A DNA stretch of 64,000 bases from Siphonodentalium dalli (taxonomy: Eukaryota; Mollusca; Scaphopoda; Gadilida; Siphonodentaliidae), in contig CP136069.1 of NCBI GenBank assembly GCA_032622095.1, positions 4,450,976 through 4,514,975 on the forward strand. Direction: 5' to 3'. Below, piece by piece: positions 15,101-60,290 of the stretch. Positions within the stretch are counted from its first letter, which is position 1; each line of letters begins with the position of its first letter. The position numbers and the translations under genes are program-made. The notes below the pieces were generated by a model. That model ran no database searches. It had not been told where the DNA came from and was given only the letters and a program-made list of their open reading frames with translations.

Positions 15101-18100
15101 ATAAGAATGTAATTCACCTTACTAACTGAGTCATCGGGGTCCCCTGCATAAGAATGTAATGCGCCTTACTAACTGAGTCATCGGGGTCCCCTCCATAAGA
15201 ATGTAATTCACCTTACTAACTGAGCCATCTGGGTCCCCTCCATAAGAATGTCATGCTCCTTACTAACTGAGCCATCTGGGTCCCCTCCATAAGAATGTCA
15301 TGCTCCTTACTAACTGAGCCATCGGGGCCCCTTCCATAAGAATGTAATTCACCTTACTAACTGAGTCATCGGGGTCCCCTCCATAAGAATGTAATTCACC
15401 TTACTAACTGAGCCATCGGGGTCCCCTCCATAAGAATGTCATGCTCCTTACTAACTGAGCCATCGGGGTCCCCTCCATAAGAATGTAATTCACCTTACTA
15501 ACTGAGCCATCGGGGTCCCCTCCATAAGAATGTCATGCTCCTTACTAACTGAGCCATCGGGGCCCTTTCCATAAGAATGTAAATTCACCTTACTAACTGA
15601 GTCATCGGGGTCCCCTCCATAAGAATGTAATGCGCCTTACTAACTGAGTCATCGGGGTCCCCTCCATAAGAATGTAATGCGCCTTACTAACTGAGCCATC
15701 GGGGTCCCCTCCATAAGAATGTAATTCACCTTACTAACTGAGCCATCTGGGTCCCCTCCATAAGAATGTCATGCTCCTTACTAACAGCCATCGGGGTCCC
15801 CTCCATAAGAATGTAATTCACCTTACTAACTGAGCCATCGGGGTCCCCTCCATAAGAATGTAATTCACCTTACTAACTGAGCCATCGGGGTCCCCTCCAT
15901 AAGAATGTCATGCTCCTTACTAACTGAGCCATCGGGGTCCCCTCCATAAGAATGTCATGCTCCTTACTAACTGAGCCATCGGGGCCCTTTCCATAAGAAT
16001 GTAAATTCACCTTACTAACTGAGTCATCGGGGTCCCCTCCATAAGAATGTAATGCGCCTTACTAACTGAGTCATCGGGGTCCCCTCCATAAGAATGTAAT
16101 GCGCCTTACTAACTGAGCCATCGGGGTCCCCTCCATAAGAATGTAATTCACCTTACTAACTGAGCCATCTGGGTCCCCTCCATAAGAATGTCATGCTCCT
16201 TACTAACTGAGCCATCGGGGTCCCCTCCATAAGAATGTAATTCACCTTACTAACTGAGCCACCGGGGTCCCCTCCATAAGAATGTAATTCACCTTACTAA
16301 CTGAGCCATTGGGGTCCCCTCCATAAGAATGTCATGCTCCTTACTAACTGAGCCATCGGGGTCCCCTCCATAAGAATGTAATGCGCCTTACTAACTGAGT
16401 CATCGGGGTCCCCTCCATAAGAATGTAATGCGCCTTACTAACTGAGCCATCGGGGTCCCCTCCATAAGAATGTAATTCACCTTACTGAGTCATCGGGGTC
16501 CCCTCCATAAGAATGTAATGCTCCTTACTAACTGAGTCATCGGGGTCCCCTCCATAAGAATGTAATGCGCCTTACTAACTGAGCCATCGGGGTCCCCTCC
16601 ATAAGAATGTAATTCACCTTACTGAGTCATCGGGGTCCCCTCCATAAGAATGTAATGCGCCTTACTAACTGAGTCATCTGGGACCCCTCCATAAGAATAG
16701 CATGCGCCTTACTAACTGAGCCATCGGGGTCCCCTCCTTAAGAATGTCATGTGCCTTATTAACTGAGTCATCAGGGTCCCCTCCACAAGAATGTCATGCA
16801 CCTTACTAACTGAGCCATCGGGGTCCCCTCCATAAGAATGTCATGCGTCTTACTAACTGAGCCACCTCCAAAAGAATGTTGAAGAATGAAGACGAGATAT
16901 TACTAATTGGCCTCACAATATGGTACTGGTCATGTGCAGAATGAGGTCACCAGTGGGCTAACATCACCAAATTCACCCCCTGGAGACCTCATTCTGCTTA
17001 GGCCTTATCTTCTCTGAAAAGTATTTTATTATCAAATTAACAAGTTTTTAAATTTCTTTAGAAATTTTCGTTTTCTTTTAAGTTTAGTTTCTCAGTATAT
17101 CCCCAAATTGGCAGACGAAACAATGTATAATCGAGGCGCCCAATGGGTGCACATCACCATGTTCATCATTTGGGAACTTAAATCTGTGTCTAGGTCTCCC
17201 ATAGCAGATGAGGCCATGCAGAATTAGGTCCCCAGAGGGTGAATTTGGTGACACTAGTCCACTGTGCAGAGTAGCATAATTAAATTCACCTTCTGGGAAC
17301 CTCATTTTGCAAATGACCAGCAAAATATTTTTAGGCCTGCTTACCAAGGTATTTAAGATTGAGAACTTTAGCGTCCTCTCCTGCTAAAGGCCGAAAAGTT
17401 TGTGTTCATATGCTTAATATGGCACAGGTTAGGGACTTGCAACTGAGGAAGATCCTATTGGTTGTATCTTTCTTTTGACTTTTCAAAACTTTACCTCTTT
17501 GGTCTTCTATAATTTTAAAGTTTTACCTTTTTCCTTAAATTACAAATTCTTAGGTATCTTTGATTTTAATTACCCTCTTTCGATCTGTACGTTCTTAATT
17601 ACTTTTCAAAATATTTCCAGCCCCTCCGTGACTTTGCTCTACGACTCAAAATTTTATGCCAAGAACACGAGGAACACAGTATCTGCATGTGATTGGGACC
17701 CTGACCCTAATATATCCCCATTCTTTCATATACTTTGCAGACACTCTCCTCTTGTTCTTGACATCCATTACATTTTTGCTCCGCCAATATTATGTGGGTA
17801 AAATGATGAATATGTTTGAGGCGTTTTTCTTTCTTACTAAAACCTATGTTGACTAACAAATAGGCCATTTATGGTCTACCTGCCAGTGCTTCACTTTGAC
17901 TTGTTTTCTGTCATTCTGGTGTGCTAGGTTTGGTGTTGCTTACCCTGGAACTCGTGTTACCTGGTCTGACACCCACTTACCTGATTGGTTACACATAAAC
18001 AAAAAAATAAAAAATATTTTTAGGCCTGCTTACCAAGGTATTTAAGATTGAGAATTAGGTCCCCAGAGGGTGAATTTGGTGACACTAGTCCACTGTGCAG

Positions 18101-21100
18101 AGTAGCATAATTAAATTCACCTTCTGGGAACCTCATTTTGCAAATGACCAGCAAAATATTTTTAGGCTTACCAAGGTATTTAAGATTGAGAACTTTAGCG
18201 TCCTCTCCTGCTTCGTTGAGAGCGACACACTCGTATCGTCCAGCATCCCCTTGTCGAGCATCTGGGATGGTGAGGTACGGCTCGGTCGATAGAATCTTAC
18301 TGTTGTGTAACCAAAGGTATTCAGGATCTGGGAATCCTTGAGCCTCACATTCAATCTCCAGCGTCTCACCGGCAACGAAACTGATGTCCTCAAATGGGAG
18401 AACCAGCGGTCGTTCTGTGAATAAATAATTTTTTTATTCATTAACCCTTTGAGTGCCAGGTCGATTTTTGTAACAACCCATATACCCTGTGCCAATGCAT
18501 TCTCTTATATATGCGAGTCGACCATAGGTCGCCTCGCATATATAAGAGAATGCATTGGCCTAACATTTTTTTTTTTTTTTAATTTTTTACAATTTTAATA
18601 ATTTATTCTTATATTCGTTTACAGACTTATTTTGTAGGTTTAGGGCCGATGAGATCGGCCCCTGGCACTCAAAGGGTTAATGCAGAACTAACATCATGAT
18701 TCGTCAATCTGAAGGCAATTAGAGCTTACTCATCAGGGCTGCAACGATTCACCGATGTTTATCGGCGATATATGATATGCGGTTCGTTCCGTAATTATTT
18801 TGGTATGTTTTCTATCCACATTTTTATAGTCCAACGCATGCCCAAGCACTCTGAGAGGATACTGTTCATCGGCTGTAATCACAATAATTCCATAGTTTCA
18901 TGTTCTGTTAAAATGTTTTAATCAATTTCATGTTGGAACTATCAGACCATGATAAAATTGCAAGTTGTCAGGCGGTCGGAGGTTGGGCAACTAAAAAAAA
19001 ATTGTCATGCGGCCGGCGAAATGTAAATTGCATGTATGGAAACATATCGGTTTTCGTGCCTTTGAGAACGACGGTGTGTGGAATACTGACAATAGAAACA
19101 ATATGCTAAGTAGGCAAAAGTTTTAATCCGGTCAAATTTTCAGTCTGGAATGTATCGTGATACGTATCATATTGTTGCAAAAAATTGTGATACGTATCAA
19201 ATCGTGAGGTGGGTGTATTGTTGCAACCCTATTACTCATAAGATGACACTTGGCAGACAAACAAAAATGATGCACTAGTGAACTGCGGGTCGTTCTATTG
19301 ATGAAACATGATTTTTTTTTTAATTACATGTATGTTAGTTGAAACATGATTCATCAAACGTATGTAGAGGTTACTCAAGTGATAAATAAATAACACTGTT
19401 ATTGCTTTAGCAGCTAAATATTTTTGAATAAGTAATTTGAAATATAACGGCCATGATAACCTCATGATTTGTTAAATTGAAGCAATGTAGATTATAAAGT
19501 TGCTTATATATAAAGGTGAAACATATGCATATTGCATTTACTTTTGGCTGGAAAAATTAACCCTTTCATGACTGGAGCTCCATTTTTTTTGGAGAAAACC
19601 CTGTGCCAATGCATTCTCTAATATATGCGAGTCGACCAAAAATTTATAAAGAATGTAAGAAAAAATGAAAAAAAATGAAAAATTGTTAAAGAATGTAAGA
19701 AAAAATGATAAAATTGTTAAAGAATATAAGAAAAAATGTTAAAAATGTAAGAGAAAATGTAAGGTAAATATTCCAACAAATTTCTAGAATCTTAAAATTG
19801 GAGCTTGAAATTTCCAATTTTTGTGATTTATACCATCAAATTGCCCAGTTACTTTCTATGCTTTAAAGATGCGGGCGGTCTTCACGGTATTGCTGTTAAA
19901 ATAGTCACTGCCATAAACAGGAAGAATATTATATAACAGACAGATTTTAATCTTAAACCAATTATAAATATTGCGTACATTGCATGCTATTATCATGTTT
20001 GAATGCCTTGTTATGTAAACAAACATCAAAAATGTTACAGAACGATTTGTTTATAGACAAACACTTGGAACTACTGGATCGTCCACTGAAAATGTTCTGT
20101 TGTGCTGTTGAAGTCGAAGATCAAATTATTGTTGCTATCAATAATCACATTCAAATCATACCAAATTTTATTTTAATTGACCCATTCTACCCACTGTCAG
20201 TTCAAAAATCCAGCTAATCCACGTTAACCCTTTACCCAACAAACCGGCCAAAACCGGCCAAATAAAGCTTCAACAGCCTAAAATATCTTCGGTCTGTCTC
20301 AATAGAACCATACAAATATGGATATCATTGGAACCGGCTCCTTGACCACATTGTGATAGTTACAGTTAGCCCTGTGCCAATGCATTCTCTTATATATGCG
20401 AGTCGACCATAGGTCGCCTCGCATATATAAGAGAATGCATTGGCCTAAAAAAAATCTTTTTTTAACACTTTTTACCATTTTTTCTTACATTCTTTAACAA
20501 TTTTATAATTTTTAATGTGTTAAGCCAATGCATTCTCTTATATATGCGAGGCGACCTATGGTCGACTCGCATATATAAGAGAATGCATTGGCACAGGGCC
20601 GTTCTGTTGGATAAAGGGTTAATTCATGATTGCGAAATGATCAGACAGAAAACATGTACATGTACATAATATAATTGTTCTTGCAAAGAGATGAACATTT
20701 TCAATCCAATTAGTATTTTCTCCTAACCTATGGTAACTATGGTAATAACGTCACACACCAAATAAGGAATTTACAACATACATGTATGATAGTATTGTGA
20801 GTTGTAAGTTGTAGATGCACCAAATTAGGGGTTTTACAACCGACATAGAAAGCGCGCGATTCCAAATAAGGAAATGGTGCAAAATCATGACTCGGCTTAT
20901 AAACAATTCATTGTGCTTTTTTCGAGAAACTATACAACACTCGATCTGCATTTTCTCCAACACAAAGCACATGTATTGTGAATAATATCGATATCATTAT
21001 TATGCTATTACAATTAGTATAGTTTTGAGGAAATTATTATAAATTGATAAATGTTATTTTTAAGTTATAACCTACAACGAAAGCTACCTGTCCCTTTAAT

Positions 21101-24100
21101 TTCACATCATATAGAGTATTTATTCCACTAACCATGGACTATAATTTCCCATCATATAGAGTATTTATTCCACTAACCATGGACTTTAATTTCACATCAT
21201 ATAGAGTATTTATTCCACTAACCATGGACTTTAATTTCACATCATATAGAGTATTTATTCCACTAACCATGGACTTTAATTTCCCATCATATAGAGTATT
21301 TATTCCACTAACCATGGACTTTAATTTCACATCATATAGAGTATTTATTCCACTAACCATGGACTTTAATTTCACATCATATAGAGTATTTATTCCACTA
21401 ACCATGGACTTTAATTTCACATCATATAGAGTATTTATTCCCTGGACCTTTAATTTCACATCATATAGAGTATTTATTCCCTGGACCTTTAATTTCACAT
21501 CATATAGAGTATTTATTCCACTAACCATGAACTTTAATTTCCCATCATATAGAGTATTTATTCCACTAACCATGGACTTTAATTTCACATCATATAGAGT
21601 ATTTATTCCACTAACCATGGACTTTAATTTCCCATCATATAGAGTATTTATTCCACTAACCATGGACTTTAATTTCACATCATATAGAGTATTTATTCCA
21701 CTAACCATGGACTTTAATTTCACATCATATAGAGTATTTATTCCCTGGACCTTTAATTTCACATCATATAGAGTATTTATTCCCTGGACCTTTAATTTCA
21801 CATCATATAGAGTATTTATTCCACTAACCATGAACTTTAATTTCCCATCATATAGAGTATTTATTCCACTAACCATGGACTTTAATTTCACATCATATAG
21901 AGTATTTATTCCACTAACCATGGACTTTAATTTCCCATCATATAGAGTATTTATTCCACTAACCATGGACTTTAATTTCACATCATATAGAGTATTTATT
22001 CCACTAACCATGGACTTTAATTTCACATCATATAGAGTATTTATTCCACTAACCATGGACTTTAATTTCACATCATATAGAGTATTTATTCCACTAACCA
22101 TGGACTTTAATTTCCCATCATATAGAGTATTTATTCCACTAACCAAGGACTTTAATTTCCCATCATATAGAGTATTTATTCCACTAACCATGGACTTTAA
22201 TTTCACATCATATAGAGTATTTATTCCCTGGACCTTTAATTTCCCATCATATAGAGTATTTATTCCACTAACCATGGACTTTAATTTCACATCATATAGA
22301 GTATTTATTCCACTAACCATGGACTTTAATTTCACATCATATAGAGTATTTATTCCACTAACCATGGACTTTAATTTCCCATCATATAGAGTATTTATTC
22401 CACTAACCATGGACTTTAATTTCACATCATATAGAGTATTTATTCCCTGGACCTTTAATTTCACATCATATAGAGTATTTATTCCACTAACCATGAACTT
22501 TAATTTCCCATAATATAGAATATTTATTCCACTAACCATGGACTTTAATTTCACATCATATAGAGTATTTATTCCACTAACCATGGACTTTAATTTCCCA
22601 TCATATAGAGTATTTATTCCACTAACCATGGACTTTAATTTCACATCATATAGAGTATTTATTCCACTAACCATGGACTTTAATTTCACATCATATAGAG
22701 TATTTATTCCCTGGACCTTTAATTTCACATCATATAGAGTATTTATTCCACTAACCATGGACTTTAATTTCCCATCATATAGAGTATTTATTCCACTAAC
22801 CAAGGACTTTAATTTCCCATCATATAGAGTATTTATTCCACTAACCATGGACTTTAATTTCACATCATATAGAGTATTTATTCCCTGGACCTTTAATTTC
22901 ACATCATATAGAGTATTTATTCCACTAACCATGGACTTTAATTTCACATCATATAGAGTATTTATTCCACTAACCATGGACTTTAATTTCCCATCATATA
23001 GAGTATTTATTCCACTAACCATGGACTTTAATTTCACATCATATAGAGTATTTATTCCACTAACCATGGACTTTAATTTCACATCATATAGAGTATTTAT
23101 TCCACTAACCATGGACTTTAATTTCACATCATATAGAGTATTTATTCCACTAACCATGGACTTTAATTTCACATCATATAGAGTATTTATTCCACTAACC
23201 ATGGACCTTTAATTTCACATCATATAGAGTATTTATTCCACTAACCATGGACCTTTAATTTCACATCATATAGAGTATTTATTCCACTAACCATGGACTT
23301 TTAACTTCACATCATATAGAGTATTTATTCCACTAACCATGGACTTTAATTTCACATCATATAGAGTATTTATTCCACTAACCATGGACTTTAATTTCAC
23401 AACCTTTAATTTCACATCATATAGAGTATTTATTCCACTAACCATGGACCTTTAATTTCACATCATATAGAGTATTTATTCCACTAACCATGGACTTTAA
23501 TTTCACATCATATAGAGTATTTATTCCACTAACCATGGACTTTAATTTCACATCATATAGAGTATTTATTCCACTAACCATGGACCTTTAATTTCACATC
23601 ATATAGAGTATTTATTCCACTAACCATGGACTTTTAACTTCACATCATATAGAGTATTTATTCCACTAACCATGGACCTTTAATTTCACATCATATAGAG
23701 TATTTATTCCACTAACCATGGACTTTAATTTCACATCATATAGAGTATTTATTCCACTAACCATGGACTTTTAGGAAGGCTCTTTAATTTCACATCATAT
23801 AGAGTATTTATTCCACTAACCATGGACTTTAATTTCACATCATATAGAGTATTTATTCCATTAACCATGGACTTTTAGGAAGGCTCTTTAATTTCACATC
23901 ATATAGAGTATTTATTCCACTAACCATGGACTTTAATTTCACATCATATAGAGTATTTATTCCACTAACCATGGACTTTTAGGAAGGCTCTTTAATTTCA
24001 CATCATATAGAGTATTTATTCCATTAACCATGGACTTTACTTTTACATCATATAGAGTATTTATTCCACTAACCATGGACTTTTAGGAAGGCTCTTTAAT

Positions 24101-27100
24101 TTCACATCATATAGAGTATTTATTCCACTAACCATGGACTTTAATTTTACATCATATAGAGTATTTATTCCACTAACCATGGACTTTTAGGAAGGCTCTT
24201 TAATTTCACATCATATAGAGTATTTATTCCACTAACCATGGACTTTAATTTCACATCATATAGAGTATTTATTCCATTAACCATGGACTTTTAGGAAGGC
24301 TCTTTAATTTCACATCATATAGAGTATTTATTCCACTAACCATGGACCTTTAATTTCACATCATATAGAGTATTTATTCCACTAACCATGGACTTTTAGG
24401 AAGGCTCTTTAATTTCACATCATATAGAGTATTTATTCCACTAACCATGGACTTTAATTTCACATCATATAGAGTATTTATTCCATTAACCATGGACTTT
24501 TAGGAAGGCTCTTTAATTTCACATCATATAGAGTATTTATTCCACTAACCATGGACTTTTAGGAAGGCTCTTTAATTTCACATCATATAGAGTATTTATT
24601 CCACTAACCATGGACCTTTAATTTCACATCATATAGAGTATTTATTCCATTAACCATGGACTTTTAGGAAGGCTCTTTAATTTCACATCATATAGAGTAT
24701 TTATTCCATTAACCATGGACTTTAATTTCTCATCATATAGAGTATTTATTCCACTAACCATGGACTTTTAGGAAGGCTCTTTAATTTCACATCATATAGA
24801 GTATTTATTCCACTAACCATGGACTTTAATTTCACATCATATAGAGTATTTATTCCATTAACCATGGACTTTTAGGAAGGCTCTTTAATTTCACATCATA
24901 TAGAGTATTTATTCCACTAACCATGGACTTTTAGGAAGGCTCTTTAATTTCACATCATATAGAGTATTTATTCCACTAACCATGGACTTTTCGGAAGGCT
25001 CTTTAATTTCACATCATATAGAGTATTTATTCCACTAACCATGGACTTTAATTTCACATCATATAGAGTATTTATTCCACTAACCATGGACTTTTAGGAA
25101 GGCTCTTTAATTTCACATCATATAGAGTATTTATTCCACTAACCATGGACTTTAATTTCACATCATATAGAGTATTTATTCCACTAACCATGGACTTTTA
25201 GGAAGGCTCTTTAATTTCACATCATATAGAGTATTTATTCCACTAACCATGGACTTTTAGGTAGGCTCTTTAATTTCACATCATATAGAGTATTTATTCC
25301 ATTAACCATGGACTTTAATTTCACATCATATAGAGTATTTATTCCACTAACCATGGACTTTTAGGAAGGCTCTTTAATTTCACATCATATAGAGTATTTA
25401 TTCCACTAACCATGGACCTTTAATTTCACATCATATAGAGTATTTATTCCATTAACCATGGACTTTAATTTCACATCATATAGAGTATTTATTCCACTAA
25501 CCATGGACTTTTAGGAAGGCTCTTTAATTTCACATCATATAGAGTATTTATTCCATTAACCATGGACTTTTAGGAAGGCTCTTTAATTTCACATCATATA
25601 GAGTATTTATTCCACTAACCATGGACTTTAATTTCACATCATATAGAGTATTTATTCCACTAACCATGGACTTTAATTTCACATCATATAGAGTATTTAT
25701 TCCACTAACCATGGACTTTAATTTCACATCATATAGAGTATTTATTCCACTAACCATGGACTTTAATTTCACATCATATAGAGTATTTATTCCATTAACC
25801 ATGGACTTCTAGGAAGGCTCTTTAATTTCACATCATATAGAGTATTTATTCCACTAACCATGGACTTTTAGGAAGGCTCTTTAATTTCACATCATATAGA
25901 GTATTTATTCCATTAACCATGGACTTTAATTTCACATCATATAGAGTATTTATTCCACTAACCATGGACTTTTAGGAAGGCTCTTTAATTTCACATCATA
26001 TAGAGTATTTATTCCACTAACCATGGCTCTTTAATTTCACATCATATAGAGTATTTATTCCACTAACCATGGACTTTTAGGAAGGCTCTTTAATTTCACA
26101 TCATATAGAGTATTTATTCCATTAACCATGGACTTTTAGGAAGGCTCTTTAATTTCACATCATATAGAGTATTTATTCCACTAACCATGGACTTTAATTT
26201 CACATCATATAGAGTATTTATTCCACTAACCATGGACTTTTAGGAAGGCTCTTTAATTTCACATCATATAGAGTATTTATTCCATTAACCATGGACTTTT
26301 AGGAAGGCTCTTTAATTTCACATCATATAGAGTATTTATTCCACTAACCATGGACTTTAATTTCACATCATATAGAGTATTTATTCCACTAACCATGGAC
26401 TTTTAGGAAGGCTCTTTAATTTCACATCATATAGAGTATTTATTCCACTAACCATGGACTTTAATTTCACATCATATAGAGTATTTATTCCATTAACCAT
26501 GGACTTTTAGGAAGGCTCTTTAATTTCACATCATATAGAGTATTTATTCCACTAACCATGGCTCTTTAATTTCACATCATATAGAGTATTTATTCCACTA
26601 ACCATGGACTTTTAGGAAGGCTCTTTAATTTCACATCATATAGAGTATTTATTCCACTAACCATGGACTTTAATTTCACATCATATAGAGTATTTATTCC
26701 ATTAACCATGGACTTTTAGGAAGGCTCTTTAATTTCACATCATATAGAGTATTTATTCCACTAACTATGGACTTTTAGGAAGGCTCTTTAATTTCACATC
26801 ATATAGAGTATTTATTCCACTAACCATGGACTTTAATTTCACATCATATAGAGTATTTATTCCACTAACCATGGACCTTTAATTTCACATCATATAGAGT
26901 ATTTATTCCACTAACCATGGACCTTTAATTTCACATCATATAGAGTATTTATTCCATTAACCATGGACTTTTAGGAAGGCTCTTTAATTTCACATCATAT
27001 AGAGTATTTATTCCACTAACCATGGACCTTTAATTTCACATCATATAGAGTATTTATTCCACTAACCATGGACTTTTAGGAAGGCTCTTTAATTTCACAT

Positions 27101-30100
27101 CATATAGAGTATTTATTCCACTAACCATGGACCTTTAATTTCACATCATATAGAGTATTTATTCCACTAACCATGGACCTTTAATTTCACATCATATAGA
27201 GTATTTATTCCACTAACCATGGACCTTTAATTTCACATCATATAGAGTATTTATTCCATTAACCATGGACTTTAATTTCACATCATATCGAGTATTTATT
27301 CCACTAACCATGGACTTTTAGGAAGGCTCTTTAATTTCACATCATATAGAGTATTTATTCCACTAACCATGGCTCTTTAATTTCACATCATATAGAGTAT
27401 TTATTCCACTAACCATGGACTTTAATTTCACATCATATAGAGTATTTATTCCACTAACCATGGACTTTTAGGAAGGCTCTTTAATTTCACATCATATAGA
27501 GTATTTATTCCACTAACCATGGACTTTAATTTCACATCATATAGAGTATTTATTCCATTAACCATGGACTTTTAGGAAGGCTCTTTAATTTCACATCATA
27601 TAGAGTATTTATTCCACTAACCATGGCTCTTTAATTTCACATCATATAGAGTATTTATTCCACTAACCATGGACTTTTAGGAAGGCTCTTTAATTTCACA
27701 TCATATAGAGTATTTATTCCACTAACCATGGACTTTAATTTCACATCATATAGAGTATTTATTCCATTAACCATGGACTTTTAGGAAGGCTCTTTAATTT
27801 CACATCATATAGAGTATTTATTCCACTAACCATGGACTTTTAGGAAGGCTCTTTAATTTCACATCATATAGAGTATTTATTCCACTAACCATGGACTTTT
27901 AGGAAGGCTCTTTAATTTCACATCATATAGAGTATTTATTCCACTAACCATGGACTTTAATTTCACATCATATAGAGTATTTATTCCACTAACCATGGAC
28001 CTTTAATTTCACATCATATAGAGTATTTATTCCACTAACCATGGACCTTTAATTTCACATCATATAGAGTATTTATTCCACTAACCATGGACTTTTCGGA
28101 AGGCTCTTTAATTTCACATCATATAGAGTATTTATTCCACTAACCATGGACTTTAATTTCACATCATATAGAGTATTTATTCCATTAACCATGGACTTTT
28201 AGGAAGGCTCTTTAATTTCACATCATATAGAGTATTTATTCCACTAACCATGGACTTTAATTTCACATCATATAGAGTATTTATTCCACTAACCATGGAC
28301 CTTTAATTTCACATCATATAGAGTATTTATTCCACTAACCATGGACCTTTAATTTCACATCATATAGAGTATTTATTCCATTAACCATGGACTTTTAGGA
28401 AGGCTCTTTAATTTCACATCATATAGAGTATTTATTCCACTAACCATGGACTTTTAGGAAGGCTCTTTAATTTCACATCATATAGAGTATTTATTCCACT
28501 AACCATGGACTTTAATTTCACATCATATAGAGTATTTATTCCACTAACCATGGACTTTTAGGAAGGCTCTTTAATTTCACATCATATAGAGTATTTATTC
28601 CACTAACCATGGACTTTTAGGAAGGCTCTTTAATTTCACATCATATAGAGTATTTATTCCACTAACCATGGCTCTTTAATTTCACATCATATAGAGTATT
28701 TATTCCACTAACCATGGACTTTTAGGAAGGCTCTTTAATTTCACATCATATAGAGTATTTATTCCACTAACCATGGACTTTAATTTCACATCATATAGAG
28801 TATTTATTCCATTAACCATGGACTTTTAGGAAGGCTCTTTAATTTCACATCATATAGAGTATTTATTCCACTAACCATGGACTTTTAGGAAGGCTCTTTA
28901 ATTTCACATCATATAGAGTATTTATTCCACTAACCATGGCTCTTTAATTTTACATCATATAGAGTATTTATTCCACTAACCATGGACTTTTAGGAAGGCT
29001 CTTTAATTTCACATCATATAGAGTATTTATTCCATTAACCATGGACTTTTAGGAAGGCTCTTTAATTTCACATCATATAGAGTATTTATTCCACTAACCA
29101 TGGACTTTAATTTCACATCATATAGAGTATTTATTCCATTAACCATGGACTTTAATTTCACATCATATCGAGTATTTATTCCACTAACCATGGACTTTTA
29201 GGAAGGCTCTTTAATTTCACATCATATAGAGTATTTATTCCACTAACCATGGCTCTTTAATTTCACATCATATAGAGTATTTATTCCACTAACCATGGAC
29301 TTTAATTTCACATCATATAGAGTATTTATTCCACTAACCATGGACTTTTAGGAAGGCTCTTTAATTTCACATCATATAGAGTATTTATTCCACTAACCAT
29401 GGACTTTAATTTCACATCATATAGAGTATTTATTCCATTAACCATGGACTTTTAGGAAGGCTCTTTAATTTCACATCATATAGAGTATTTATTCCACTAA
29501 CCATGGCTCTTTAATTTCACATCATATAGAGTATTTATTCCACTAACCATGGACTTTTAGGAAGGCTCTTTAATTTCACATCATATAGAGTATTTATTCC
29601 ACTAACCATGGACTTTAATTTCACATCATATAGAGTATTTATTCCATTAACCATGGACTTTTAGGAAGGCTCTTTAATTTCACATCATATAGAGTATTTA
29701 TTCCATTAACCATGGACTTTTAGGAAGGCTCTTTAATTTCACATCATATAGAGTATTTATTCCACTAACCATGGACTTTTAGGAAGGCTCTTTAATTTCA
29801 CATCATATAGAGTATTTATTCCACTAACCATGGCTCTTTAATTTTACATCATATAGAGTATTTATTCCACTAACCATGGACTTTTAGGAAGGCTCTTTAA
29901 TTTAACATCATATACAGTATTTATTCCACTAACCATGGACTTTAATTTCACATCATATAGAGTATTTATTCCACTAACCACGGACTTTTAGGAAGGCTCT
30001 TTAATTTCACATCATATAGAGTATTTATTCCACTAACCATGGACTTTAATTTCACATCATATAGAGTATTTATTCCATTAACCATGGACCTTTAATTTCA

Positions 30101-33100
30101 CATCATATAGAGTATTTATTCCACTAACCATGGACTTTTAGGAAGGCTCTTTAATTTCACATCATATAGAGTATTTATTCCACTAACCATGGACTTTAAT
30201 TTCACATCATATAGAGTATTTATTCCACTAACCATGGACTTTTAGGAAGGCTCTTTAATTTCACATCATATAGAGTATTTATTCCACTAACCATGGACCT
30301 TTAGGAAGGCTCTTTAATTTCACATCATATAGAGTATTTATTCCATTAACCATGGACTTTTAGGAAGGCTCTTTAATTTCACATCATATAGAGTATTTAT
30401 TCCACTAACCATGGACTTTAATTTAACATCATATACAGTATTTATTCCACTAACCATGGCTCTTTAATTTCACATCATATAGAGTATTTATTCCACTAAC
30501 CATGGACTTTTAGGAAGGCTCTTTAATTTCACATCATATAGAGTATTTATTCCACTAACCATGGACTTTAATTTCACATCATATAGAGTATTTATTCCAC
30601 TAACCATGGACTTTTAGGAAGGCTCTTTAATTTCACATCATATAGAGTATTTATTCCATTAACCATGGACCTTTAGGAAGGCTCTTTAATTTCACATCAT
30701 ATAGAGTATTTATTCCATTAACCATGGACTTTTAGGAAGGCTCTTTAATTTCACATCATATAGAGTATTTATTCCACTAACCATGGACTTTAATTTAACA
30801 TCATATACAGTATTTATTCGACTAACCATGGCTCTTTAATTTCACATCATATAGAGTATTTATTCCACTAACCATGGACTTTTAGGAAGGCTCTTTAATT
30901 TCACATCATATAGAGTATTTATTCCACTAACCATGGACTTTAATTTCACATCATATAGAGTATTTATTCCACTAACCATGGACTTTTAGGAAGGCTCTTT
31001 AATTTCACATCATATAGAGTATTTATTCCATTAACCATGGACTTTTAGGAAGGCTCTTTAATTTCACATCATATAGAGTATTTATTCCACTAACCATGGA
31101 CTTTTAGGAAGGCTCTTTAATTTCACATCATATAGAGTATTTATTCCACTAACCATGGACTTTAATTTCACATCATATAGAGTATTTATTCCACTAACCA
31201 TGGACCTTTAATTTCACATCATATAGAGTATTTATTCCACTAACCATGGACTTTTAGGTAGGCTCTTTAATTTCACATCATATAGAGTATTTATTCCACT
31301 AACCGTGGACTTCTAGGAAGGCTCTTTAATTTCACATCATATAGAGTATTTATTCCACTAACCATGGACTTTAATTTCACATCATATAGAGTATTTATTC
31401 CACTAACCATGGACTTTTAGGAAGGCTCTTTAATTTCACATCATATAGAGTATTTATTCCACTAACCATGGACTTTAATTTCACATCATATAGAGTATTT
31501 ATTCCATTAACCATGGACTTTTAGGAAGGCTCTTTAATTTCACATCATATAGAGTATTTATTCCACTAACCATGGACTTTAATTTCACATCATATAGAGT
31601 ATTTATTCCACTAACCGTGGACTTCTAGGAAGGCTCTTTAATTTCACATCATATAGAGTATTTATTCCACTAACCATGGACTTTAATTTCACATCATATA
31701 GAGTATTTATTCCATTAACCATGGACTTTTAGGAAGGCTCTTTAATTTTACATCATATAGAGTATTTATTCCACTAACCATGGACCTTTAATTTCACATC
31801 ATATAGAGTATTTATTCCACTAACCATGGACTTTTAGGAAGGCTCTTTAATTTCACATCATATAGAGTATTTATTCCATTAACCATGGACTTTTAGGAAG
31901 GCTCTTTAATTTCACATCATATAGAGTATTTATTCCACTAACCATGGACTTTAATTTCACATCATATAGAGTATTTATTCCACTAACCATGGACTTTTAG
32001 GAAGGCTCTTTAATTTCACATCATATAGAGTATTTATTCCACTAACCATGGACTTTTAGGAAGGCTCTTTAATTTCACATCATATAGAGTATTTATTCCA
32101 TTAACCATGGACTTTTAGGAAGGCTCTTTAATTTCACATCATATAGAGTATTTATTCCACTAACCATGGACTTTTAGGAAGGCTCTTTAATTTCACATCA
32201 TATAGAGTATTTATTCCACTAACCATGGACTTTAATTTCACATCATATAGAGTATTTATTCCATTAACCATGGACTTTTAGGAAGGCTCTTTAATTTTAC
32301 ATCATATAGAGTATTTATTCCACTAACCATGGACCTTTAATTTCACATCATATAGAGTATTTATTCCACTAACCATGGACTTTAATTTCACATCATATAG
32401 AGTATTTATTCCATTAACCATGGACTTTTAGGAAGGCTCTTTAATTTCACATCATATAGAGTATTTATTCCACTAACCATGGACTTTTAGGAAGGCTCTT
32501 TAATTTCACATCATATAGAGTATTTATTCCACTAACCATGGACTTTTAGGAAGGCTCTTTAATTTTACATCATATAGAGTATTTATTCCATTAACCATGG
32601 ACTTTTAGGAAGGCTCTTTAATTTCACATCATATAGAGTATTTATTCCACTAACCATGGACTTTTAGGAAGGCTCTTTAATTTCACATCATATAGAGTAT
32701 TTATTCCATTAACCATGGACTTTTAGGAAGGCTCTTTAATTTCACATCATATAGAGTATTTATTCCACTAATCATGGACTTTTAGGAAGGCTCTTTAATT
32801 TCACATCATATAGAGTATTTATTCCATTAACCGTGGACTTCTAGGAAGGCTCTTTAATTTCACATCATATAGAGTATTTATTCCACTAACCATGGACTTT
32901 TAGGAAGGCTCTTTAATTTCACATCATATAGAGTATTTATTCCACTAACCATGGACTTTAATTTCACATTATATAGAGTATTTATTCCACTAACCATGGA
33001 CTTTAATTTCACATCATATAGAGTATTTATTCCACTAACCATGGACTTTAATTTCACATCATATAGAGTATTTATTCCACTAACCATGGACTTTAATTTC

Positions 33101-36100
33101 ACATCATATAGAGTATTTATTCCATTAACCATGGACTTTAATTTCACATCATATAGAGTATTTATTCCACTAACCATGGACTTTAATTTCACATCATATA
33201 GAGTATTTATTCCACTAACCATGGACTTTAATTTCACATCATATAGAGTATTTATTCCACTAACCATGGACTTTAATTTCACATCATATAGAGTATTTAT
33301 TCCACTAACCATGGACTTTAATTTCACATCATATAGAGTATTTATTCCACTAACCATGGACTTTAATTTCACATCATATAGAGTATTTATTCCACTAACC
33401 ATGGACTTTAATTTCACATCATATAGAGTATTTATTCCATTAACCATGGACTTTTAGGAAGGCTCTTTAATTTCACATCATATAGAGTATTTATTCCATT
33501 AACCATGGACCTTTAGGAAGGCTCTTTAATTTCACATCATATAGAGTATTTATTCCACTAACCATGGACTTTAATTTCACATCATATAGAGTATTTATTC
33601 CACTAACCATGGACTTTAATTTAACATCATATACAGTATTTATTCCACTAACCATGGACTTTAATTTCACATCATATAGAGTATTTATTCCACTAACCAT
33701 GGACTTTAATTTCACATCATATAGAGTATTTATTCCACTAACCATGGACTTTAATTTCACATCATATAGAGTATTTATTCCACTAACCATGGACTTTAAT
33801 TTCACATCATATAGAGTATTTATTCCATTAACCATGGACTTTTAGGAAGGCTCTTTAATTTCACATCATATAGAGTATTTATTCCACTAACCATGGACTT
33901 TAATTTCACATTATATAGAGTATTTATTCCACTAACCATGGACTTTAATTTCACATCATATAGAGTATTTATTCCACTAACCATGGACTTTAATTTCACA
34001 TCATATAGAGTATTTATTCCACTAACCATGGACTTTAATTTCACATCATATAGAGTATTTATTCCATTAACCATGGACTTTAATTTCACATCATATAGAG
34101 TATTTATTCCACTAACCATGGACTTTAATTTCACATCATATAGAGTATTTATTCCACTAACCATGGACTTTAATTTCACATCATATAGAGTATTTATTCC
34201 ACTAACCATGGACTTTAATTTCACATCATATAGAGTATTTATTCCACTAACCATGGACTTTAATTTCACATCATATAGAGTATTTATTCCATTAACCATG
34301 GACTTTTAGGAAGGCTCTTTAATTTCACATCATATAGAGTATTTATTCCACTAACCATGGACTTTAATTTCACATCATATAGAGTATTTATTCCACTAAC
34401 CATGGACTTTAATTTCACATCATATAGAGTATTTATTCCATTAACCATGGACTTTTTGGAAGGCTCTTTAATTTCACATCATATAGAGTATTTATTCCAC
34501 TAACCATGGACTTTAATTTCACATCATATAGAGTATTTATTCCATTAACCATGGACTTTTAGGAAGGCTCTTTAATTTCACATCATATAGAGTATTTATT
34601 CCACTAACCATGGACTTTAATTTCACATCATATAGAGTATTTATTCCATTAACCATGGACTTTTTGGAAGGCTCTTTAATTTCACATCATATAGAGTATT
34701 TATTCCATTAACCATGGACTTTTAGGAAGGCTCTTTAATTTCACATCATATAGAGTATTTATTCCACTAACCATGGACTTTAATTTCACATCATATAGAG
34801 TATTTATTCCATTAACCATGGACTTTTAGGAAGGCTCTTTAATTTCACATCATATACAGTATTTATTCCATTAACCATGGACTTTTAGGAAGGCTCTTTA
34901 ATTTCACATCATATAGAGTATTTATTCCACTAACCATGGACTTTTAGGAAGGCTCTTTAATTTCACATCATATAGAGTATTTATTCCATTAACCATGGAC
35001 TTTTAGGAAGGCTCTTTAATTTCACATCATATAGAGTATTTATTCCACTAACCATGGACCTTTAATTTCACATCATATAGAGTATTTATTCCACTAACCA
35101 TGGACTTTAATTTCACATCATATAGAGTATTTATTCCACTAACCATGGACTTTAATTTCACATCATATAGAGTATTTATTCCACTAACCATGGACTTTTC
35201 GGAAGGCTCTTTAATTTCACATCATATAGAGTATTTATTCCACTAACCATGGACTTTTAGGAAGGCTCTTTAATTTCACATCATATAGAGTATTTATTCC
35301 ACTAACCATGGACTTTTAGGAAGGCTCTTTAATTTCACATCATATAGAGTATTTATTCCACTAACCATGGACTTTAATTTCACATCATATAGAGTATTTA
35401 TTCCACTAACCATGGATTTTTAGGAAGGCTCTTTAATTTCACATCATATAGAGTATTTATTCCACTAACCATGGACTTTAATTTCACATCATATAGAGTA
35501 TTTATTCCATTAACCATGGACTTTTAGGAAGGCTCTTTAATTTCACATCATATAGAGTATTTATTCCACTAACCATGGACTTTTAGGAAGGCTCTTTAAT
35601 TTCACATCATATAGAGTATTTATTCCACTAACCATGGACTTTAATTTCACATCATATAGAGTATTTATTCCACTAACCATGGACCTTTAATTTCACATCA
35701 TATAGAGTATTTATTCCACTAACCATGGACCTTTAATTTCACATCATATAGAGTATTTATTCCACTAACCATGGACTTTAATTTCACATCATATAGAGTA
35801 TTTATTCCACTAACCATGGACTTTAATTTCACATCATATAGAGTATTTATTCCATTAACCATGGACTTTAATTTCACATCATATAGAGTATTTATTCCAC
35901 TAACCATGGACTTTAATTTCACATCATATAGAGTATTTATTCCACTAACCATGGACTTTAATTTCACATCATATAGAGTATTTATTCCACTAACCATGGA
36001 CCTTTAATTTCACATCATATAGAGTATTTATTCCACTAACCATGGCTCTTTAATTTCACATCATATAGAGTATTTATTCCACTAACCATGGACTTTTAGG

Positions 36101-39100
36101 AAGGCTCTTTAATTTCACATCATATAGAGTATTTATTCCACTAACCATGGACTTTAATTTCACATCATATAGAGTATTTATTCCACTAACCATGGACCTT
36201 TAATTTCACATCATATAGAGTATTTATTCCACTAACCATGGACTTTAATTTCACATCATATAGAGTATTTATTCCACTAACCATGGACCTTTAATTTCAC
36301 ATCATATAGAGTATTTATTCCACTAACCATGGACCTTTAATTTCACATCATATAGAGTATTTATTCCACTAACCATGGACTTTAATTTCACATCATATAG
36401 AGTATTTATTCCACTAACCATGGACTTTAATTTCACATCATATAGAGTATTTATTCCATTAACCATGGACTTTAATTTCACATCATATAGAGTATTTATT
36501 CCACTAACCATGGACTTTAATTTCACATCATATAGAGTATTTATTCCACTAACCATGGACCTTTAATTTCACATCATATAGAGTATTTATTCCACTAACC
36601 ATGGACTTTAATTTCACATCATATAGAGTATTTATTCCATTAACCATGGACTTTTAGGAAGGCTCTTTAATTTCACATCATATAGAGTATTTATTCCACT
36701 AACCATGGACTTTAATTTCACATCATATAGAGTATTTATTCCATTAACCATGGACTTTTAGGAAGGCTCTTTAATTTCACATCATATAGAGTATTTATTC
36801 CACTAACCATGGACCTTTAATTTCACATCATATAGAGTATTTATTCCACTAACCATGGACTTTAATTTCACATCATATAGAGTATTTATTCCACTAACCA
36901 TGGACTTTAATTTCACATCATATAGAGTATTTATTCCACTAACCATGGACTTTTCGGAAGGCTCTTTAATTTCACATCATATAGAGTATTTATTCCACTA
37001 ACCATGGACTTTTAGGAAGGCTCTTTAATTTCACATCATATAGAGTATTTATTCCACTAACCATGGATTTTTAGGAAGGCTCTTTAATTTCACATCATAT
37101 AGAGTATTTATTCCACTAACCATGGACTTTAATTTCACATCATATAGAGTATTTATTCCACTAACCATGAACTTTTAGGAAGGCTCTTTAATTTCACATC
37201 ATATAGAGTATTTATTCCACTAACCATGGATTTTTAGGAAGGCTCTTTAATTTCACATCATATAGAGTATTTATTCCACTAACCATGGATTTTAATTTCA
37301 CATCATATAGAGTATTTATTCCATTAACCATGGATTTTTAGGAAGGCTCTTTAATTTCACATCATATAGAGTATTTATTCCACTAACCATGGACTTCTAG
37401 GAAGGCTCTTTAATTTCACATCATATAGAGTATTTATTCCATTAACCATGGACTTTAATTTCACATCATATAGAGTATTTATTCCACTAACCATGGACTT
37501 TAATTTCACATCATATAGAGTATTTAGTCCACTAACCATGGACTTTTAGGAAGGCTCTTTAATTTCACATCATATAGAGTATTTATTCCATTAACCATGG
37601 ACTTTTAGGAAGGCTCTTTAATTTCACATCATATAGAGTATTTATTCCACTAACCATGGACCTTTAATTTCACATCATATAGAGTATTTATTCCACTAAC
37701 CATGGACCTTTAATTTCACATCATATAGAGTATTTATTCCACTAACCGTGGACCTTTAGAGTATTTATTCCACTAACCATGGACCTTTAGAGTATTTATT
37801 CCACTAACCATGGACCTTTAGAGTATTTATTCCACTAACCGTGGACCTTTAGAGTATTTATTCCACTAACCATGGACCTTTAGAGTATTTATTCCACTAA
37901 CCATGGACCTTTAGAGTATTTATTCCACTAACCATGGACTTTTAGGAAGGCTCTTTCTTCTGATGATCCTCCTTCATTCGTCGCTCTGCATAGATAGTTA
38001 CCCTCATCATCGTCAGTGACACCCCTGAAATCAACGGTAATGGTAATAATAACCACTTGATTTTAGAGTTAACCATCTTTATCTGCAAGACCGTCCGTTT
38101 GACCCCATGCTTCTTCGTGCTTGTGGCCCAAAACCAATTGAAATAATAAACTTCAAAAATCTATATCTGATCACTCTGAGCTTTGATGGGTATGTTCCTT
38201 GAGTCGAATCACATATTTTTTACCCCCGAAGCCAAAGAAATAGTAATGTGGTCAAGGAGCCGGTTCTATTGAGACAGACCGAAGATATTTTAGGCTGTTG
38301 AAGCTTTATTTGGCCAGTTTTGGCCGGTTTGTTGGGTAAAGTGTTAAATTACAATTAATTTTAAATTTTAAATGAGTCATTTTTGTTTATAGTAAAGACA
38401 TATTATGTACTTGTTCAGATGCTGATAAGTTAGTATTCAGGTGCTTTGCCGACTGCAGGAATGTAGCATTCCACTAACATCGCCGAAAATCTCAAGCAAA
38501 TCGACCAGACCACTCCATAAAAAACTACTTTGAACAAGATTATTCTCCATTTCTATTTGATCACCGTTCCAGACTGTTTCACATCACTTTAATTTGCTTA
38601 CCTTACAACTAGTGTACCATTGTCAAATGTAGAAAACTTCTGATTTGAGGGAATCGGCAAGCCATCAGCAAACAGCCAGGTCACTTCGAAGCTAACGGCA
38701 CTCTGAGCCTGACAGGTAAGGAAGGCGGTCTGTCCAGGGGACACAGATACATTGGCTGGTGGTAATATGATCGGCGGGGGTTCTGAAAATGTAAACATGG
38801 ATATATGTTGAAGATGACAGTGCTCCGAGCTGAGGACACAGATACATTCGGTGGTGGTAATATGATGGATGGGGGAGGGGACACAGACACATTGGGTGGT
38901 GGTAATATGATGGATGGGGGAGGGGACACAGATACATTGGTTGGTGGTAATATGATGGATGGGGGAGGGGACACAGATACATTGGGTGGTGGTAATATAA
39001 TGGATGGGGGAGGGGACAGATACATTGGGTGGTGGTAATATGATGGATGGGGGAGGGGACACATATACATTGGGTGGTGGTAATATGATGGATGGGGGTG

Positions 39101-42100
39101 GGACAGACACATTGTGTGGTGGTAATATGATGGATGGGGGAGGGGACACAGATACAATGGTTGGTGGTAATATGATGGATGGGGGAGGGGACACAGATAC
39201 ATTGTGTGGTGGTAATATGATGGATGGGGGAGGGGACACAGATACATTGGTTGGTGGTAATATGATGGATGGGGGAGGGGACACAGACACATTCGGTGGT
39301 GGTAATATGATGGATGGGGGAGGGGACACAGACACATTCGGTGGTGGTAATATGATGGATTGGGGAGGGGACACAGATACATTGTGTGGTGGTAATATGA
39401 TGGATGGGGGAGGGGGACACAGATACATTGGTTGGTGGTAATATGATGGATGGGGGAGGGGACACAGACACATTCGGTGGTGGTAATATGATGGATGGGG
39501 GAGGGGACACAGACACATTGGGTGGTGGTAATATGATGGATGGGGGAGGGGACACAGACACATTGGGTGGTGGTAATATGATGGATGGGGGTGGGGACAC
39601 AGACACATTCGGTGGTGGTAATATGATGGATGGGGGTGGGGACACAGACACATTCAGTGGTGGTAATATGATGGATGGGGGTGGCGACACAGACACATTC
39701 GGTGGTGGTAGTATGATGGATGGGGAAGGGGACACAGACACATTGTCTGGTGGTAGTATGATGGGTGGGGGCTCTGAAAATCTGAAAATGTAAACATGGA
39801 TATATGTTGAAGATGACGGAACTCTGAGTCTGACACAGATACATTGATTGGTTGGTGGTGGTGGACAGGGGCTCTGAAAAGATGACAGAACTCTGAGCCG
39901 GACAGACATATTGGTTGGGGGGGGGCTCTGAAAATGTAAACATGGATATATGTTGAAGATGATAGAACTCTGAGCCTGACACAGACACATTGGTTGGTTG
40001 GTGGTGGACGGGGGCTCTGAAAAGATTATAGAACTCTGAGCCTGACACAGATACATTGGTTGGTTGGTGGTGGACGGGGGCTCTGAAAATGTAAACATGG
40101 ATATATGTTGAAGATGACAGAACTCTGAGCCTGACACAGACACATTGGTTGGTTGGTGGTGGTGGTGGACGGGGACTCTGAAAATGTAAACATGGATATA
40201 TGTTGAATATTTGTATGACCCACATATGTTAGTAAAGGGGGATGGCCAATGACACTTGAGTCCACGACAAGAGGTACCATGTCTTGCCCACCAGAAGCTG
40301 ACATAAGCTAATGACAGGCAGAGAACCCTGCTGTATAGGCAGTTTCAGAATCAATCAGAATTCGACCCATTATGTTAACCCTTTCAGTGCCAGGGGCCGA
40401 TCTCATCCGCCCTAATTTACGGTCTGTAAAATCGGCCCTAAAAATTTTTTTAAATTAAAAATATTTTTTATTTATTTCTTCTTTTTTTTAGATTTTTTTG
40501 GGTTGTATTTTTTTTGGGTATGCTTAAGCATGCTATAGCGAATTTAAAAACAAACTGGATAAAACCTTAGGGGCATATTATAACTCAAAACTATCACCAA
40601 GTATTCATAGTAATAATTTTGATGCCCATGAAAAACGTAAGATTCCCTGGCACTAAACCTACAAAATAAGTCTGTTAAAGAATATAAGAAAAAATTATTA
40701 AAATTGTAAAAAATTGTAAATAATAATAACAAATGATGAAAAATTATTAGGCCAGTGCATTCTCTTATATATGCGAGGCGACCTATGGTCGACTCGCATA
40801 TATAAAAGAATGCATTGGCACAGGGTATATGGGTTGATACAAAAATCGGACCTGGCACTGAAAGGGTTAATTAATGCCATTAAAATTGTAAAAAAATAAA
40901 AAAATTAATAACAAATGATGAAAAATTATTAGGCCAATGCATTCTCTTATATATGCGAGGCTGAGGACTCAGATACATTGGTTGGTGGTTATAGAATGAA
41001 TGGGCGGGGGGGGCTCTGAAGAAACAAAGAACTGGAATATCGCCTGGTGCATACCCCATGTGGCATACCATCTAGTGTGGGCGTTAGAGATGGGTGGTTT
41101 GATTTTTTACGTTCGGTTTCGGTTTTAGTGGGAGAAAAAACCTCGGTTTCGGTTCGGTTTTCGTTTTTTTTACTAGATAGTGAAATTATACTGAAATACA
41201 TACAATTTGAGTATATACTTTCAAAGTAACCTTATTAGAGTCAATAATGTCCCAATAACGTTGAATATTTGAGGAAGGAAATGCGATCACAGGTAAACAA
41301 CGGGACAAAATGCCGACGCAAACTGAATCCAACGCGATAAGATGATACAATTCGGTATTTAAAAAAATAAACACCCCCATCTTCACTGTTTATCCCTTTC
41401 TGACATGTTTACAACATATTTATCATATTATATGCATTAGTATCTGAGAATTCAACCGCAAACAGCAGCAAATTCACAAACAGTGGGCGTCCTTGACCTG
41501 ACTGTGTAACAATTCTTGACACGTGTATGATTGACCCACATTCAATGACTGCGGTGTGATCGCTTTGATGTCTGTGATGTTGCGATATAGTTTACAAGGT
41601 GCACATGGCTGCAAACTTCTACCAGATTACGTCACATCGGAATGTCCAGCCGATCAAAGTGTTCATACCATTTACTTGGTTTATTCTTCGAGTTAGCAGA
41701 CGCTTCCATTTTTTAAACAGGAAAAAGCCACAAACAGAAGAATAAAAGTATATTGCCCGGATTTAAAATTGGGAACCGTTTTTCCGTTTTTTTCAATTAC
41801 GATCAAACCGAACTACATAAACCGAAACCGATCCATCACTAGTGGGCGTACCTATAACCCATGGCTGAGATACTCTGACAGACAGACCAAACAATCCAAC
41901 ATTTTCAGATAAACACAGAAGAATAACTCTAGAATGGACCATCCAAACAAAACAATTGAAAATGGGAGGCAGTTTATGACACATTACGTAACTAACATGC
42001 CATCGCTGGTACATCGAATTATAGGTCAATGTATTTATGTATTTCATCTTACAGACCGCCTAATCAACGAAATATGATATAACCTGTGCAGAGATTAAGG

Positions 42101-59334: not shown

Positions 59335-60290
59335 GCAGAAAATTGGTGATATATTATATAGGTAACAATAGTTGCATGTATACACAAACACAACCAGTAA
59401 TGACAAAAAATACACTCAAATGTTAACACAAACACAACCTGTTATGACAAAAAACACACTCAAATGTTAACACAAACACAACCTGTTATGACAGAAAATA
59501 AAGTCACCTGTTAACACAAACATGACCTGTTATGACAGAAAACACAGTTGCCTGTTAACACAAAGAAAACCTGTTATGACAGAAAATACAGTTGCCTGTT
59601 ATCACAAACACACCGTTATGACAGAAAACACAGTTGCCTGTTAACACAAACACACTGTTATGACAGAAAACACAGTTGCCTGTTAACACAAACACACTGT
59701 TATGGCAGAAAACACAGTTGCCTGTTAACACAAACACACTGTTATGGCAGAAAACACAGTTGCCTGTTAACACAACATGTTATAACAGAAAACACAGTTG
59801 CCTGTTAACACAAACACACTGTTATGACAGAAAACACAGTTGCCTGTTGACACAAACACACTGTTATGGCAGAAAACACTGTTGCCTGTTAACACAACCT
59901 GTTATAACAGAAAACACAGTTGCCTGTTAACACAAACACACTGTTATGGCAGAAAACACAGTTGCCTGTTAACACAAACACACTGTTATGGCAGAAAACA
60001 CAGTTGCCTGTTAACACAAACACACTGTTATGGCAGAAAACACAGTTGCCTGTTAACACAAACACACTGTTATGGCAGAAAACACAGTTGCCTGTTAACA
60101 CAAACACACTGTTATGGCAGAAAACACAGTTGCCTGTTAACACAACCTGTTATAACAGAAAACACAGTTGCCTGTTAACACAAACACAACCTGTTATGAC
60201 AGAAAGCACAGGCATATGCTAACACAAACACAACCTGTTATGACAGAAGATAGGTAATATATAATTTAGGTAACAATGGTCACCTGTATA
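59335..60290 (-). repeat. 42-45-bp array made from the vWA exon's 3' splice site, about 20 copies
   Basis: On the minus strand units read TGTCATAACAGGTTGTGT, then TTGTGTTAACAGGCAACTG, matching the acceptor and start of exon A (GCAGGTTGTGTTTGTGTTAA). In frame the units encode VFVLTGNCVFCHNS, an echo of VVFVLTGDC. The intron that follows the acceptor copy nearest the exon (ATATATTATATAGGTAAC at about 59350) recurs at the far end (60255-60275), marking both limits of the amplification. Confidence 0.92.

Follow-up and report, generated by a model that had tools for sequence, protein, structure and literature searches.

Hundreds of tandem copies of an exon-intron boundary inside an intron of a hemicentin-like gene of Siphonodentalium dalli

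Tandem repeats at exon-intron boundaries have been described in human genes lying in segmental duplications, where internal repeats of about 30 bp occur in about 4 copies and average 160 bp (PMC2812944), and intron gain is known to occur by tandem genomic duplication of exon segments that contain AGGT (PMC3443670; a case in potato, PMC4974935). Here we describe a 16.9 kb satellite, referred to below as the donor array, which consists of tandem copies of one exon-intron boundary and lies within an intron of 19.5 kb in a gene on the minus strand with hemicentin-like domain content. It was analysed in a window of 64,000 bp (the whole stretch of DNA under study, C9:4450976-4514975) from the animal genome assembly of Siphonodentalium dalli, which has 2.23 Gb in 9 contigs.

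As in the human repeats reported in PMC2812944, minisatellite units of similar size extend over an exon-intron boundary and possibly provide new or alternative splice sites; the units of the donor array are in tandem, measure 31-60 bp, and include exon sequence together with a splice site. Unlike those repeats (about 30 bp × 4), the donor array has 337 units over 16.9 kb and lies wholly on the intron side, and a second locus extends over at least 105 kb. It also resembles intron gain by tandem duplication, as described in PMC3443670, in that splice-site sequence was copied in tandem, but here an existing donor was spanned and an existing intron lengthened, with neither a new acceptor nor a new intron. 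Duplicated AGGT serving as new donor and acceptor was not found at this locus, where the exons on either side are in phase with each other and the units contain no pyrimidine-rich acceptor. The open-access literature searched, outside of which most subscription papers lie, describes no exon followed by an array in which the donor is copied hundreds of times.

The host gene is named hemicentin-like from its predicted domains, namely a series of I-set immunoglobulin (Ig) exons, of which the window exons tested score over the cut-off, a hemicentin galactose-binding-like domain (PF23560, 39.5 bits with a cut-off of 27), and a weak vWA match in one exon (VWA_4, E 2.5e-4, 21.1 bits, under the cut-off of 27). 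Beyond the window, the region 4.390-4.450 Mb contains 13 more I-set places, also on this gene's strand. Three exons of this gene frame the donor array (window positions, minus strand, here and below). Exon A (38602..38782) encodes the first part of an Ig domain (...NGTLVVR) and exon B (37933..38024) its second part, both placed by splice sites, frame and the I-set match, which for exon A is that of the spliced exons. Exon C (18172..18414), the next downstream exon, encodes an Ig domain and is in phase with exon B according to its splice sites and I-set match, and the reading frame is continuous from exon A through exon B to exon C. The preliminary description of this DNA had called exon B exon H and set its end at 37933, with which our analysis agrees. 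Exon B ends in AGCCTTCCTAAAAGTCCATG (AFLKVH), the tail that supplies the exonic portion of the satellite unit, and is followed by GTTAGT (37927..37932), the first donor in the series and presumably the authentic 5′ splice site, since its phase joins exon C in frame. The intron between exons B and C (18415..37932) has 19,518 bp by its coordinates, about 86% of which is array, on the intron side of the intact exon B donor.

By unit counts, the donor array (21094..37948) contains 337 cores, far beyond chance, and thus exists as first claimed. The 336 spacings between cores are of 45 bp (149 times), 59 bp (125), 46 bp (47), 39 bp (8), 31 bp (6) and 60 bp (1). Read in gene orientation, the 59-bp unit starts with the exon tail AGCCTTCCTAAAAGTCCATG and continues with the donor and intron start GTTAGTGGAATAAATACTCTATATGATGTGAAATTAAAG; it thus holds 20 exonic bases (24 with the AAAG shared at the junction), GTTAGT and the start of the intron, a composition that had been recognized from the start, and the 45-bp unit lacks the 14 bases between two AAAG words. 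The donor is GTTAGT in 265 copies and GTTAAT, with G>A at +5, in 63. Two of the proportions first given proved too high: tail and donor had been ascribed to about half of the units, and the donor core CCATGGTTAGTGG to nearly all. The exon tail is present in 125 of 336 units (37%), 74 of which end in GTTAGT, and the 13-base core is exact in 252 of 337 (75%).

The order of units divides the array into zones. Next to the exon, six 31-bp units without the long tail form a sub-array (37758..37930, limits approximate), the middle is a mixture of 45- and 59-bp units with higher-order patterns, and a distal zone of 2.3 kb with a period of about 45 bp (21094..23401) consists almost entirely of 45- and 39-bp units without exon tail and runs into the unique intron sequence GGGACAGGTAGC. 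Long arrays are hard to assemble, and a short repeat could have been falsely expanded into such a satellite; however, the 336 segments comprise 47 distinct sequences with an ordered structure and position-specific zones, which is not what one repeated block would give, and comparable arrays occur at several further loci, so that we regard an assembly artefact as highly improbable.

Exon B is supported as the seed of the donor array because the core of the unit is private to the locus, the tail is ancestral, and the array edges read into the exon and into unique intron with a common AAAG. A search of the whole assembly for the 33-base intronic core with up to 3 mismatches gave 331 reverse and 0 forward matches, with 0 for the reversed-pattern control. 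The window holds 331 matches, which places 331/331 at the array locus; this privacy applies to the assembled sequence, from which masked or missing stretches could differ. Exact matches to the 13-base donor core number 264 genome-wide, 252 of them in the array, and the 12 outside it are at chance level, since the control gives 13. The satellite of this unit was thus not found at unrelated loci, where, according to the preliminary description, its presence would have spoken against an exon origin. Spliced exons A, B and C match I-set positions 3-90 of 90, and the last matched residues, LKV, fall in the exon B tail, which therefore is ancestral coding sequence (the Ig G strand); sibling exons end comparably (LDVH, LIVQ). 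AAAG stands at all junctions, in GAAG-AAAG-AGCC at the exon edge, AATT-AAAG-GGACAG at the far edge and AATT-AAAG-AGCC between units. Because both edges share it, tandem duplication at a 4-base microhomology is suggested, although a match of four bases, taken by itself, says little about the mechanism. The derivation of the copies from the exon, as first claimed, agrees with the core matches, the I-set fit to the tail end and the edge sequences. In the opposite course, the repeat would have come first: a mobile repeat or dispersed satellite would have inserted next to exon B, which then took its end from it. In its favour, dispersed satellites bearing GTAAGT do exist in this genome, since AACCAATACAGGTAAGTG-like or related units are common to 4 of the 10 arrays checked, at places away from exons. 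We give this origin hardly any probability, given that all core matches are at the array locus and that the exon tail agrees with the I-set model and the sibling exons.

We consider it likely that the donor array arose passively, as a by-product of a genome prone to minisatellites, in which splice boundaries are swept along with intron. A tandem duplication, probably via the AAAG microhomology, would have taken in the final 20-24 bases of exon B, the donor and the first ~39 intron bases, and slippage and unequal exchange may then have enlarged this duplication to a minisatellite that spans 16.9 kb, with units of 45, 46 and 59 bp. The array would have grown, presumably neutrally, within the intron begun by its own donor. 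Because the first exon copy and its donor stay intact, splicing most likely still proceeds from the exon-proximal donor, and the copies would remain intronic. With a downstream donor in use, CAT G would continue into GGT TAG, which places a stop in frame just after the first donor and would yield truncated or decayed transcripts; productive mRNA therefore needs the first donor.

The same stop could be put to use if later donors were chosen at times, giving TAG-ended, decay-prone transcripts whose share is set by U1 level or array length, so that the array acts as an expression rheostat. The 265 GTTAGT copies have a core identical to that of the true donor, which is distinguished by position alone and by no sequence difference, and the in-frame TAG follows directly; competition among the copies may thus be imagined. 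However, the first donor is, by calculated U1 duplex energy, among the weaker of the 11 compared in the gene (-6.3, with -5.6 to -12.3 for the 10 other donors), and the +5A copies are weaker (-2.6), so that regulated competition appears unlikely.

Another function is suggested by intron 3 of human CstF-77, a large intron with a weak 5′ splice site and an intronic poly(A) site under U1 control (PMC3708835). U1 bound to the copies could suppress premature cleavage and polyadenylation in the long intron (telescripting), or the array could balance full-length against truncated hemicentin. On the minus strand of the window, 336 sense AATAAA are found in the 16.9 kb array, with its 337 cores, versus 51 in the other 47.1 kb. 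AATAAA follows a few bases past the donor, in 263 cassettes of GTTAGTGG-AATAAA and 63 of GTTAATGG-AATAAA, and a GU-containing stretch, TGATGTG, comes after it. The presence of U1-type sites near AATAAA in a long intron is shared with the suppression of intronic polyadenylation by the U1 small nuclear ribonucleoprotein (PMC5499120); unlike telescripting as described there, the arrangement of motifs in the donor array is explained by co-amplification, and a telescripting function for it is putative. AATAAA travelled with the seed, and selection is not needed to account for its number. In pieces from three further donor arrays the count of AATAAA is 0 (L098 on C1, 3,101 b; L062, 620 b; L075, 1,251 b), and 63 units of the donor array lack +5G, the base that a U1-binding role should retain. 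Since AATAAA was already in the seed and is absent from those pieces, a passive array is favoured, and a U1/poly(A) buffer is in our judgement rather improbable. The presence of multiple U1 binding sites after a single exon also recalls ExSpeU1, in which exon inclusion is rescued by an additional U1 that binds the intron beyond the 5′ splice site (PMC4822034), although the U1 was engineered in that system, whereas the donor array offers natural copies of the donor itself.

In order to compare splice boundaries with their surroundings, we used 73 exons hand-picked for spread, consisting of 11 in the window, 13 further in the host gene, 35 other Ig exons and 14 ABC exons, the last three groups covering 48 of the 150 I-set places listed and 14 of 19 ABC places. 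Two window exons with unfixed boundaries (47.4-47.6 and 49.1-49.25 kb) were left out, and the near-identical duplicates L071/L074 versus L077 were retained. For each boundary, we asked whether the 24 bases across it have another local copy, a test that misses copies with indels such as that of the vWA-exon donor. Local copies were found at 9 of 48 boundaries in the host gene, versus 28.6-30.1% of intronic positions, and at 10 of 98 elsewhere, versus 11.5-12.1%, where 4 of the 10 belong to a duplicated exon pair in L058 and not to arrays. At exon-interior positions the rate was 2.0-6.9%. Boundaries thus behave like intron, and exon interiors are protected. As the boundary rates are no higher than the intronic background, we reject preferential seeding at splice sites for this sample, which looks more like a minisatellite-prone genome that sweeps splice sites along. 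A search for kinases led to 25 loci, all in one intronless tandem cluster. More than 90 of the 135 protein-kinase matches listed are near-identical intronless open frames of ~281 aa in this cluster (C2:149.83-150.60 Mb, L001-L025).

Donor-side repeats are also found elsewhere in the genome, as 26 bp × 23.5 behind an Ig exon (L062), as 35 units of 60 bp behind an ABC-transporter exon (L075, counted over L075 and L096), as a 46 bp × 2.2 duplication behind another Ig exon (L047), and as a 41-bp array behind an exon that matches Pfam USP47_C with E 1.6e-12 (L080). A 26-bp satellite of CATACAACTAACGG/GTAAGTCTCGTA type starts exactly at the donor of the putative exon L097 (C1:232,065,580) and extends over at least 105 kb, being still present at C1:231,960,000, with 9 of 9 interior probes positive and the intervening stretches partly read; 117 of its 195 sampled units keep G at +1. 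A Pfam scan of this putative exon gave no significant match (best E 0.11), so that the exon rests on frame and splice signals. At C1:50,091,200 (L079), three 27-bp copies of an exon tail with GTAAGT leave the frame open (VIHSGKCIHVIHSGKCIQVIHSG), so that splicing from a later donor would lengthen the protein by 9 residues for each copy and would not introduce a stop.

When the genome was scanned for CAGGTAAGT occurring three times in close succession, 802+665 matches were obtained, compared with 166+141 when the pattern was reversed; a few large arrays inflate this ratio. Among the matches listed (two listings), 5 of 10 arrays have an exon or a putative exon at their start (C1:50.09, 65.9, 232.07 and 267.85 Mb; C2:28.66 Mb), 4 look like dispersed satellite without edge exon, and 1 (C2:32.69 Mb), less clear in type, shows none. 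For the five edge exons, Pfam gave one match (USP47_C) among three scanned and no match for the other two; the exon at C1:267.85 Mb is a candidate MYPT1 exon. The four dispersed arrays rule out that every GTAAGT array is exon-seeded. Related CAGGTAAGTG satellites, unlinked and without edge exon, lie at C1:257.632, C2:19.745, C2:29.393 and C3:13.675 Mb (L109, L111, L113, L115), and look like a dispersed repeat that happens to carry the donor consensus.

Within the window, repeat scanning found further boundary repeats, all on the minus strand. Acceptor-side arrays copy the start of exon A (45 bp × 20.9, 38834..39771, with related repeats on to 40207) and the acceptor and start of a vWA-region exon that starts at 59326 (42 bp × 20.9, 59370..60248). 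The tail and donor of this vWA-region exon are duplicated at 59076..59221 (72 bp × 2), where the copy reads GTAGTT versus GTAGGT. Another acceptor-side array, TTTATCTTACAG/TACGACCGATGC, is found at 7699..8123 (48 bp × 8.9), and the exon behind it has a donor-side duplication at its opposite end (34 bp × 2.2, 7398..7471). Inspection of the sequence added that the tail and donor of exon C occur a second time (AATCTTAAATACCTTG/GTAAGC) within the intron, some 130 bp from its start (18028..18054). Since comparable donor- and acceptor-side arrays occur elsewhere and boundaries are not enriched over intron, the donor array can be seen as one of a class. The window also contains a local duplication, seen as two TATGGAAC-type repeat blocks (154-925 and 1449-2232) that are nearly identical and lie about 1.3 kb from each other, and three adjoining minisatellites with units of 58, 31 and 47 bp (13780-16864) in the intron before a 9.2 kb exon, with no edge exon seen.

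Several points weigh against a purely passive origin. The +5 G>A change is by far the commonest variant of the donor array (63/323; the next, 16); it weakens U1 pairing and could hint at selection, the position-block test giving p 0.044 in this array alone. AATAAA stands beside the donor in all but one listed unit, and a role in 3′-end processing is conceivable. The use of the exon-proximal donor is presumed from the sequence, and the intronic background of the exon-sample test is rough, overlapping positions having been counted.

Other arrays vary in where they change most. At C1:232 Mb the commonest change is at +1 (49 A and 29 T of 195), in L062 it is -2 C>T (22/24) with +5 G>A second (16/24), and in L075/L096 it is +14 T>C (8/34) with +3 A>C tied for second (5/34). 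Block-shift tests gave p 0.044 for the window, 0.19 for C1, 0.46 for L062 and 0.75 for L075, and 0.17 for the four arrays combined, which leaves donor disarming unsupported as a general rule and makes the disarming of copies a lead, not a result. Tentatively, and with considerable doubt, we propose that splice-donor satellites are a recurrent class, with tens to thousands of near-identical donors behind intact exons; while donor arrays do recur, it is our conjecture that the first donor is chosen by position alone and that the copies are pressed to disarm at donor-critical bases.

The choice among identical 5′ splice sites is usually studied with two or three engineered copies. The donor array is a natural test case, in which about 265 copies of an exon's own donor, together with 63 natural +5 mutants, stand behind that exon, with AATAAA beside nearly each. 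Identical-donor choice could be tested in one natural transcript, and the second locus offers at least 105 kb of donor-bearing repeats. Such arrays would bear on whether position alone decides the choice, on the frequency of its failures, and on a possible protection of adjacent poly(A) signals by U1. In this genome, the duplication of splice sites appears to be tolerated about as well as that of plain intron.

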